Part shown: piece after piece, positions 30,916-40,794 of the stretch | Position numbering within the stretch: the first letter of the stretch is position 1 | Layout of the letters: each line of letters opens with the position of its first letter | From: Frankiales bacterium | GTDB taxonomy: Bacteria > Actinomycetota > Actinomycetes > Mycobacteriales > SCTD01 | DNA: 41,463 nt | Assembly: GCA_025965475.1 (NCBI GenBank) | Contig: JAOPWV010000075.1 | Location: forward strand, 1-41,463 | Direction of reading: 5' to 3' | Notes under the pieces: model-generated | What the model saw: only the letters and a program-made list of their open reading frames with translations | Told to the model about the DNA's origin: nothing | Database searches by the model: none | Position numbers and translations under genes: made by a program

Positions 30916-31454
30916 GGCACCAGTTCGGCCCCGGCCTCCGCCATCTGGGCGAGGGCCGCCTGGGTCGTCCCGGGCGCCACGCCGGCGCAGGCCTCGAGCA
31001 GGACGCGGACCGGCAGCCCCGCGGCGCGGGCGTCGAGGACGGACGCGCGCACGCAGTGGTCCGTCGCGATCCCGCACACGTCGAGTGCGTCCACGCCGCG
31101 CTCGCGCAACCAGTCCTCGAGCCGGGTTCCGCCGACAGTGCCCTGGAAGGCGCTGTACGCCGCCGCGTGCTCGCCCTTGCGGACCACCGCGTCGACCGCG
31201 TCCTCGGTCAGCGGCTCCTGCAGCCGGGACCCGGCAGTCCCGACCACGCAGTGCGCCGGCCACGTGGCGACGTAGTCGGGCTCGTTCGCGAAGTGGTCGC
31301 CCGGGTCGACATGCCAGTCGGCGCTGGCCACGACCACGTCGTACGACGGCAGCAGGCCGACGACCGTGCGGGCCACCTCACGGCCGCCCTGTACGGCGAG
31401 GGATCCGCCTTCGCAGAAGTCCTCCTGGACGTCGACGATCAACAGCGCGCGCAT
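30912..31454 (-). CDS. pncA: Nicotinamidase
   Basis: ATG 31454 overlaps the pncB stop (ATGA) and gives 180 residues. The isochorismatase-fold triad is visible: Asp8 in IVDVQEDF, Lys93 in VRKGEHAAAY and Cys134 in GIATDHCVRAS. Metal ligands Asp46, His48 and His54 lie in ADWHVDPGDHF. It hydrolyses nicotinamide to nicotinate, which the upstream gene product pncB then ribosylates. Together they form the Preiss-Handler salvage route to NAD. This is also the enzyme that activates pyrazinamide in mycobacteria. Confidence 0.95.
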   Translation of the reverse strand: MRALLIVDVQEDFCEGGSLAVQGGREVARTVVGLLPSYDVVVASADWHVDPGDHFANEPDYVATWPAHCVVGTAGSRLQEPLTEDAVDAVVRKGEHAAAYSAFQGTVGGTRLEDWLRERGVDALDVCGIATDHCVRASVLDARAAGLPVRVLLEACAGVAPGTTQAALAQMAEAGAELVP

Positions 31455-38759: not shown

Positions 38760-39659
38760 ATGGGACTTCTTGACGGCAAGGTCGCCATCGTCACCGGCGC
38801 GGGGCGTGGCATCGGACGAGGCGAGGCCCTCGAACTGGCCGCCCAGGGGGCCGGCGTCGTCGTGGGCGAGGTCGACGCGGACGCCGGCCAGGCGGTCGTG
38901 GACGAGATCACCGCCGCGGGCGGCGCCGCCGTCGTGCAGGTCGGCGACTGCGCGGAGGTCGAGGCGGCCGAGGCCATCGTGGCGCGCGCCGTCGACGAGT
39001 TCGGCCGGCTCGACGCGCTGGTCAACAACGCGGGCATCCTGCGGGACCGGACGCTGGCCAAGATGACGCCGGAGGAGTGGGACGCGGTCATCCGGGTCCA
39101 CCTGCGCGGTCACTACGCGCCGACGCACGCCGCGGTCAACCACTGGCGCGCGGCCGGCCAGCCGGGTCACGTCGTCTGCACGGCAAGCACCAGCGGGGTA
39201 CTGGGCAACTTCGGGCAGGCCAACTACGGCGCCGCCAAGGCCGGCATCGCGGCGTTCGCCCAGATCGTCGCCCAGGAGAACTGGAAGCACGGCATCACCG
39301 TCAACGCGATCTGCCCGGCTGCGCGCACCCGGATGACCGAGGGCGCCTACGGCTCGATCGGCAGCGCCGACGACGACTTCGACTTCTGGCACCCGGACAA
39401 CGTGGCGCCGTTCGTGACCTTCCTGTGCAGCGACGCGGCCGCGCACATCAGCGGCAAGGTGTTCGGTGTGCAGGGCGACACCGTCGAGTTGTACCGGCCG
39501 TGGACGAGCGAGGCCGTCATCGAGAACGGCGGCAACCGCTGGGACCCCGCCGTCTTCGCCGACCGGGTCGGGAACCTCTTCGAGGAGACCGGCATCAACC
39601 CGGCGGCCGAGAACGGGATGGCGCGGCTGCGCTACTCGATGACCAACCGGACCCCCTGA
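38760..39659 (+). CDS. SDR family NAD(P)-dependent oxidoreductase
   Basis: The 299-residue protein starts at ATG 38760. The Rossmann motif TGAGRGIG (12-19), NNAG (89-92) and the catalytic YGAAK (Tyr156, Lys160) with Ser143 or Ser145 upstream define a classical short-chain dehydrogenase. Insertions after the active site and the terminal WTSEAVIENGG region resemble SDRs linked to the MFE-2/17-beta-hydroxysteroid type, which act on 3-hydroxyacyl-CoA or sterols. It may work with CoA-ester metabolism such as the thiolase at 5307-6449, but they are not neighbours. No MaoC hydratase domain is fused. Confidence 0.92.
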   Translation: MGLLDGKVAIVTGAGRGIGRGEALELAAQGAGVVVGEVDADAGQAVVDEITAAGGAAVVQVGDCAEVEAAEAIVARAVDEFGRLDALVNNAGILRDRTLAKMTPEEWDAVIRVHLRGHYAPTHAAVNHWRAAGQPGHVVCTASTSGVLGNFGQANYGAAKAGIAAFAQIVAQENWKHGITVNAICPAARTRMTEGAYGSIGSADDDFDFWHPDNVAPFVTFLCSDAAAHISGKVFGVQGDTVELYRPWTSEAVIENGGNRWDPAVFADRVGNLFEETGINPAAENGMARLRYSMTNRTP

Positions 39660-39729
39660 CCGCAGGCTCCCGCAGCCGGTCGCTGGGCCGGCCGCGCGTC
39701 GACCTGGGCATTTCAGGCTAGACGACCGG

Positions 39730-39762
39730 GTCACAGGAACGTCACGAAAGGGTCACGCGAAG
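39730..39762. promoter_or_regulatory. Three GTCAC repeats at 11-bp period (PhoP-box-like)
   Basis: GTCAC starts at 39730, 39741 and 39752, an exact 11-bp period, just upstream of a TAGAGT -10 box. Tandem TCACA-type half-sites spaced 11 bp apart are the binding pattern of actinobacterial PhoP regulators. The third unit overlaps the expected -35 position, fitting activation. Confidence 0.5.
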
Positions 39763-39777
39763 GACGCGGTGCATCCC

Positions 39778-39783
39778 TAGAGT
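39778..39783 (+). promoter_or_regulatory. -10 box for leaderless epimerase transcript
   Basis: TAGAGT (TANNNT) ends six bases before GTG 39790, consistent with transcription starting at the start codon. It lies downstream of the GTCAC repeat array. Confidence 0.5.
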
Positions 39784-39789
39784 GGGCTG

Positions 39790-40794
39790 GTGCGCGTCTT
39801 CCTCACCGGTGGCACCGGTTTCCTCGGGGCGGAGATCGCGCGCCGTCTACGGGCCCGCGGCGACGACGTGCGGGCCCTGGTGCGCACCCCGGCCAGAGCG
39901 GTTCGCCTGGAGGAGCTCGGCTGTGAACTGGTCGTCGGCGACCTGGCCGACGAGGCCCTGCTCACCGAGGCGTGTCGCGGGATCGATGTCGTCGTCCATG
40001 CTGCGGCGCTGACGCAGATCGGCGTGCCGACCGAGGGTCGGGCCGCCATGGTGGACGCCAACGTCGCGGGCACCGAGCGGGTGCTCGGCGCGGCCCTCGC
40101 CGCGGGCGTCCGCCGGGCCGTCTACGTCTCGACCGTCGCCGTGTTCGGCGACACCCGGGGGCAGGTGGCGGACGAGACCTGGGTGCGTCTCGAGGAGGCC
40201 AGGTACACGTCCGTCTACGAGCAGACGAAGGTCCTCGCGCAGCGGCGGGCTCACGAGATCGCCGCCCGCGGCCTCGCGCTGGTGACCGTCCAGCCCGGCC
40301 TCGTGTACGGACCGGGGGACACCGGCCCGGTCGGCGACCTGCTCCGGCGGTTCCTGGACCGGCGGCTGGGCGCGCTGCCCTTCGCCCGTCTCGGGGTGTC
40401 GCCGGTGCATCGTGACGACGTGGCCGCCGGGGTCCTGCTGGCCCTGGACGAGGGCGTGCCCGGCGAGTCGTACGTCCTGGCCGGACCCCCGGTCCGGATG
40501 GGCGAGCTCGTGGCGCGGCTGGCAGCGGTGAGCGGCCGCCGTCCGCCCCGGCTCCTGCCGACGGCGGTCGTGCGGGCGGCCGCGCCGTTCGGGCGGTTCG
40601 CCGGGCAGGCGCTGGGTCTGCCGCCCAACCTGCGGGAGGTGCTGACCTCCGCGGACGGCGTGACCTACTGGGCGAGCGCCGAGAAGGCCCGCGAGCAGCT
40701 CGGCTGGACGAGCCGGTCGCTCGACCAGGGACTGCGCCAGCTGGCCGGGGCAACCCCGGCTCCCGGTCAGCCGGTGGGCCGACTGCCCGCCTGA
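39790..40794 (+). CDS. NAD-dependent epimerase/dehydratase (extended SDR)
   Basis: The 334-residue protein starts at GTG 39790. TGGTGFLG (6-13), Asp51 in VVGDLAD, Ser114 in YVSTVAVFG and the catalytic YEQTK (Tyr143, Lys147) define an extended SDR. PGLVYGPGD and the VHRDDVA motif are typical of nucleotide-sugar epimerases, dihydroflavonol reductases and 3-beta-hydroxysteroid dehydrogenase-like enzymes. The exact substrate is unknown. Its 3' end overlaps the convergent larC end by 28 bases. Confidence 0.9.
   Translation: MRVFLTGGTGFLGAEIARRLRARGDDVRALVRTPARAVRLEELGCELVVGDLADEALLTEACRGIDVVVHAAALTQIGVPTEGRAAMVDANVAGTERVLGAALAAGVRRAVYVSTVAVFGDTRGQVADETWVRLEEARYTSVYEQTKVLAQRRAHEIAARGLALVTVQPGLVYGPGDTGPVGDLLRRFLDRRLGALPFARLGVSPVHRDDVAAGVLLALDEGVPGESYVLAGPPVRMGELVARLAAVSGRRPPRLLPTAVVRAAAPFGRFAGQALGLPPNLREVLTSADGVTYWASAEKAREQLGWTSRSLDQGLRQLAGATPAPGQPVGRLPA

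Follow-up and report, generated by a model that had tools for sequence, protein, structure and literature searches.

A conserved 11-bp direct-repeat box ahead of an epimerase-family gene in Frankiales looks more like an MtrA site than a PhoP site

Which regulator, if any, reads three copies of GTCAC that stand one helical turn apart ahead of an epimerase-family gene? The copies lie in a contig of an uncultured Frankiales bacterium (JAOPWV010000075.1), and we call the whole stretch of 41,463 nucleotides that was analysed the window. A first-pass annotation took the copies for a PhoP-like box that would place the gene under phosphate or envelope stress control. The repeats themselves are as it described them: GTCAC begins at 39730, 39741 and 39752, an exact 11-bp period. 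It also put them directly ahead of the hexamer TAGAGT. The hexamer is indeed downstream, but "directly" is loose, since 21 bp separate it from the third unit. The features of the locus are the following.

39730..39734, forward strand: repeat unit 1, GTCAC, exact letters
39741..39745, forward strand: repeat unit 2, GTCAC, 11 bp downstream of unit 1
39752..39756, forward strand: repeat unit 3, GTCAC, ending 21 bp upstream of the -10 element, over the -35 region
39763..39767, forward strand: possible degenerate unit 4, GACGC, weak, in register with units 1 to 3
39778..39783, forward strand: -10 element TAGAGT; the pattern TANNNT is kept in 12 of 12 orthologous promoters
39790..40794, forward strand: HpnA-like gene of the NAD-dependent epimerase/dehydratase family; GTG start, probably leaderless

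The box lies between the epimerase-family gene and a short-chain dehydrogenase gene (38760-39659), which are 130 bp apart, and TAGAGT stands 6 nt upstream of the GTG start at 39790. At the place that matches the weak fourth unit, two orthologues have GACAC, 10 bp upstream of the -10 element. The protein matches the Pfam family Epimerase (118 bits). Model comparison suggests HpnA as the best model for it (NCBIfam TIGR03466, 213.7 bits), though this is far under the cut-off of 367.65 and the assignment of a function is weak.

Taken alone, the single sequence makes a moderate case. The exact GTCAC triple at an 11-bp period occurs once in the 3.89-Mb genome (reversed pattern: 0), and about 0.04 exact triples are expected from the 5-mer frequencies of the window. 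Three results would suit chance repeats without function. First, exact triples of any 5-mer at periods 6 to 30 number 44 in the window; six have at least two A/T letters, and the GTCAC triple is the only one of the 44 with period 11. Second, when three mismatches are allowed, the window has 5 matches against a shuffled mean of 3.00, and 19 of 100 shuffles reach 5, which is near chance. Third, GTCAC pairs at the 11-bp period show no genome-wide enrichment: we found 19 and expected about 22.5 from 5-mer frequencies. The reversed pattern gives 4 pairs, a control that understates the background, because the 19 forward pairs exceed it and still do not reach the expected 22.5. The reality of the box rests on conservation and not on one-sequence statistics.

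To define orthologues we used a cut-off of E <= 1e-70, which 11 of 24 family genomes pass, including our own. A copy in a further genome (G014) was matched in two pieces. Alignment of nine orthologues with the window protein gave identities of 60-73%. Those relatives that have names are metagenome-assembled genomes labelled Frankiales, Frankineae or Frankiaceae. From the 12 promoters (100 bp each) we counted all 4-letter words at periods 6-25 and compared the counts with 500 dinucleotide-shuffled sets. TCAC at period 11 is found in 8 of the 12 promoters, CACG likewise, and the two are joint top of all words and periods. No shuffled set exceeds 4 promoters. The longer word TCACG recurs at period 11 in 7/12. 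The promoters are related, so the eight are not independent cases; nonetheless, the spacer letters differ among them. Of the other four, two have units without an exact pair (L067 with one unit plus a variant, L068 with a single unit) and two have no unit at all (L072, L013). L013 is the G014 orthologue (G014:C30); its two pieces lie in different frames, one with a TGA, and its promoter has the -10 element without repeat units. When inspected by eye, the more distant homologues (10 of 19 rows, the other 9 being Frankiales) have no such box.

Retention of the repeats in orthologous promoters, whose absence the first-pass annotation would have counted against its reading, is thus what we see. 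Because word and period are conserved across these promoters, the box is real, and the repeats are almost certainly a conserved regulator box of the OmpR/PhoB type.

The geometry of the promoters is just as regular. TANNNT lies 6-9 nt upstream of the start codon in 12/12 promoters (range searched 5-10 nt), hence the epimerase promoter is probably leaderless. In each of the ten promoters (of 12) that bear units, one unit ends 19-21 bp upstream of TANNNT, over the -35 region. The remaining units stand about one turn up or down, at 8-10, 31-32 or 42-43 bp from TANNNT. Nothing resembling a -35 hexamer was seen in the orthologous promoters at a spacer of 17 bp; the repeats cover that place. Tandem repeats one helical turn apart at a fixed position relative to the promoter are what marks an OmpR/PhoB-type box, and this unit placement is the activator geometry of the class. 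Such activators are placed over the -35 region, and their promoters depend on them; by analogy, the epimerase promoter may depend on an activator as well. In E. coli, the pho box of PhoB takes the place of the -35 element. It too consists of tandem 11-bp units (according to the available text of PMC4832192), but core and regulator are different ones, and the epimerase promoter is predicted to be leaderless. Chance repeats are extremely unlikely to produce this picture: 8/12 promoters share the word and the period, the shuffled maximum is 4, and the phase to the -10 element is fixed.

Where else does the box occur? The pattern GTCACN6RTCACN6-28TANNNT has 25 matches in the 24 family genomes and 2 in reversed form. 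With the units one base closer, the same genomes give 3 matches and 1 reversed; this spacing control is better than the reversed one and covers our own family alone. A stricter form, TCACN6RTCACN7-11TANNNT, has 6 matches in 24 genomes (control 0), of which 3 are epimerase orthologues. It misses the window's own site because 21 bp separate the -10 element from the final exact unit there. A looser form, applied to 4 genomes of the genus, yields 9 matches, 1 of them in our own genome (control 0). The genes behind the 25 family matches comprise epimerase orthologues (6), rimP (4, Pfam RimP), HAMP-domain proteins (2), one NlpC/P60 gene, and leuS, cysS, otsA and others. The names leuS, cysS, otsA, senX3, TrkA and GlnR are read from the sequences. 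The rimP sites (L119, L120, L121, L123) are GTCAC/RTCAC pairs from four genomes in two genera of our own family, and their distance to the -10 element varies.

Across the order (150 genomes), forward and reversed matches number 22 vs 2 in 20 genomes of our own family, 35 vs 2 in 17 genomes of one other family, and 113 vs 61 in the remaining 113 genomes. In the other family, 21 of the 35 sites precede PAP2 (9), NlpC/P60 (7) or M23 (5) genes, as assigned by BLAST clusters and Pfam. In a third family, RipA-like proteins lie behind two sites; one of these (L222) matches RipA chains at E 2e-71 and the other (L220) clusters with it. In four genomes of one family (L266, L269, L272, L274) the match overlaps a conserved CGAACTTGTGTTCTATT before one small protein, which we take to be LexA-box-like.

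Altogether, 170 sites were examined among the matches listed (25 from our own family, 30 loci and 115 stretches order-wide). Two had no reading frame and another 23 were set aside as short or non-coding-like, leaving 145 proteins for a Pfam scan. They match 111 families, of which we considered the best 25. The second unit is preceded by G in 9/9 PAP2 sites, 7/7 M23 sites (with the riboswitch-led secreted proteins L165 and L195 counted among them), 6/6 epimerase, 4/4 rimP and 4/4 senX3-like sites, in 5/8 NlpC sites and in 0/4 sites before solute-binding proteins. G or A follows the first GTCAC in all those clusters, and 126 other sites have no such bias. Because each cluster groups related members, the counts represent few independent cases. 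The four senX3-like sites (L148, L150, L175, L177) all come from a single other family, where four genomes share a conserved GTCACGTTAGGGTCAC box ahead of the histidine kinase gene.

Candidate readers are plentiful. Our genome encodes 16 Trans_reg_C matches over the cut-off. MtrA is among the regulators encoded (NF040689, 373 bits, cut-off 300; structure match 2gwr). A homologue of PhoP, without which the original reading would have been in trouble, is also present: L037 resembles M. tuberculosis PhoP (E 1e-106; structure matches 9ji3 and 3r0j), and L033 is RegX3-like (2oqr, E 3.2e-104), which we take to be the orthologue of Streptomyces PhoP. One further protein reads as GlnR from its sequence. 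The strict pairs near the 16 Trans_reg_C loci are of the GTTCA type only and are found at two of them. Neither our own mtrA locus nor our own phoP locus showed a strict pair.

Phosphate control, as the first-pass annotation implied, would involve the RegX3-like protein. That protein is encoded, and the 11-nt direct repeat units of the Streptomyces PhoP/RegX3 PHO box share the period and the location at promoters. The classical PHO box, however, is made of GTTCACC units (available text of PMC6988585). We looked for it at pstS. PstS-like proteins occur in 23/24 family genomes and exceed the cut-off in 20; from each of these we took the best locus and the 420 bp upstream of the profile match, leaving out 10 further pstS-like loci. 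GTTC recurs at period 11 in 16/20 of these regions and GTTCA in 12/20 (raw counts, own genome included). In our genome the PHO box reads GTTCACTCGTCGTTCAT (L325, contig C87, before pstS at 31068) and lies next to the OmpR-type gene L046. TCAC at period 11 is present in 6/20 pstS regions too, because GTTCAC contains TCAC. Yet the letter before TCAC is T at pstS, whereas the epimerase promoters have G, A or C there, so the epimerase units never read TTCAC. The PHO core is a feature of pstS in this family and not of the epimerase gene. No phosphate-uptake family is among the 25 of 111 Pfam families considered, each with at least 2 of the 145 box-downstream proteins. The sole link to Pho is the GTCAC pairs upstream of 4 kinases, read as senX3-like and confined to one other family. 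The proposed link to phosphate control is therefore not supported, since the pstS regions carry a different box, and we consider a RegX3-like reader very unlikely.

PhoP of the M. tuberculosis type comes closer. L037 is very near to that protein, and the TCAC core and the 11-bp period fit: in the available text of PMC4832192, M. tuberculosis PhoP binds pairs of the 7-bp motif TCACAGC at a strict 4-bp spacer (an 11-bp period), extending to three and four repeats. But PhoP needs the whole of TCACAGC, and the AGC is not conserved in the epimerase units, where TCACG is the word that recurs in 7/12. Our phoP locus also lacks a strict pair. We think it unlikely that PhoP reads the box.

Another OmpR-family regulator, such as an AfsQ1-like protein, GlnR or one more of the 16 Trans_reg_C proteins, could read it instead. 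The box is an exact fit to the AfsQ1 pattern GTnAC-n6-GTnAC (PMC6988585, available text), and a congeneric species has a pair with CTCAC before glnR. That site (L318, G002:C17:104437-104463) is a pair ending in CTCAC, followed by TATCTT, before a gene read as glnR. Against GlnR, no nitrogen-assimilation family is among the best 25 of the 111 Pfam families downstream of boxes. The b-site of GlnR is GAAAC, and it was not seen at the box. This group of readers seems improbable to us.

The best candidate is MtrA, a cell-wall and osmotic-stress regulator. In M. tuberculosis its motif is a 9-nt repeat with 2 nt between the units, and ripA is a confirmed target (PMC6265350, available text); motifs include CACGCCG and CACGAGG at dnaA as well as GTCACAgcg (excerpts of PMC2945938). 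In C. glutamicum, an 8-bp repeat with a 3-bp linker is found at mepA, mepB, nlpC, betP and proP (PMC3353115; also PMC9602371 and PMC9960051, all as far as their available text goes), and MtrA represses from near the -10 element and activates from upstream of the -35 element (PMC3353115, likewise). The parts of PMC5650626 and PMC13189361 available to us describe the Streptomyces sites as loosely conserved pairs. The period of the direct repeat in M. tuberculosis and C. glutamicum, the GTCAC and CACG cores in M. tuberculosis, the envelope-gene targets and, in C. glutamicum, activation by binding upstream of the -35 element are all like what we describe or propose here. In contrast, the GTCAC units of the present box are nearly perfect, number two or three and lie over the -35 region of a promoter predicted to be leaderless, with an epimerase-family gene as the target, whereas the spacing in Streptomyces is 5 or 6 nt and the C. 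glutamicum units are GTAAC-like (on the same partial sources). A GTCAC/GTnAC-like direct repeat of matching spacing is what we find, a form that is not specific to MtrA.

The NlpC loci, a known type of MtrA target, give a mixed picture. A box before known MtrA-type targets is clear only in the other family. Of the NlpC-like loci in our own family, 1/23 (L297) showed, within the stretch examined, a strict pair with TANNNT behind it, and the pattern search adds L140. The NlpC/P60 gene of our own genome (contig C19, 12290-13447) is headed by a c-di-AMP riboswitch (RF00379, 66.6 bits), an arrangement that relatives share. The GTCAC pair found there (L049/L288) was considered as an MtrA box and rejected, because it lies inside the 5' part of the riboswitch aptamer. 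In the other family, the riboswitch follows the box at 3/7 NlpC loci, and also at L165 and L195.

MtrA is favoured because GTCAC pairs elsewhere precede PAP2, NlpC/P60 and M23 genes, which are partly MtrA-type targets. It is weakened because the NlpC loci of our own family are mostly without the box, because our own mtrA locus has no strict pair, and because the MtrA sites of C. glutamicum and Streptomyces are GTAAC- or GTnAC-like and not fixed on GTCAC. Counting against it as well, we know of nothing about MtrA that would explain the rimP (4) and senX3-like (4) targets, and the reversed-pattern control, which sets the background too low, slightly lowers our confidence in MtrA. We observe a conserved box in fixed phase to the -10 element, a different PHO box at pstS and an encoded MtrA. 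On balance, the box looks more like an MtrA landing site than a PhoP site, and judged from sequence its most likely reader, by a modest preference, is MtrA of the MtrAB system. The first-pass annotation was right about the kind of box, an OmpR/PhoB-type direct repeat conserved in 8/12 promoters; it is PhoP as the reader that gives way to MtrA. Similarly, envelope control stays likely, through MtrA rather than through PhoP.

We infer a mechanism, from the binder and its signal to activation and a leaderless start, that would work as follows. The box would be a head-to-tail, multi-unit binding site with a unit of about gGTCACG and an 11-bp period for a response regulator of the OmpR/PhoB family. 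The phosphorylated regulator would bind over the -35 region, either as a dimer in tandem or with one copy on each of the three units. Bound there, it would replace the -35 element that the promoter lacks and activate leaderless transcription (TAGAGT, with a transcript from about the GTG). The epimerase gene would then be switched jointly with envelope genes. More tentatively still, GGTCACG-repeat boxes may define a class of leaderless, -35-less promoters in Frankiales and their relatives that is switched by MtrA, and the HpnA-like epimerase gene would be one of its core members, with strong binding, alongside hydrolases, a PAP2 phosphatase and rimP.

The value of the result lies in useful annotation more than in surprise. 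It provides a well-defined candidate binding site for a regulator in a group that has been little studied, and one genome with two distinct 11-bp repeat boxes, GTTCA at pstS and GTCAC at the epimerase gene. If MtrA reads the box, then the epimerase-like gene would be a new target of a well-known kind of control. The prediction is that an uncharacterised HpnA-like enzyme is part of the envelope-stress programme. If true, a membrane-lipid or envelope-sugar step would be tied to a cell-wall stress regulator.
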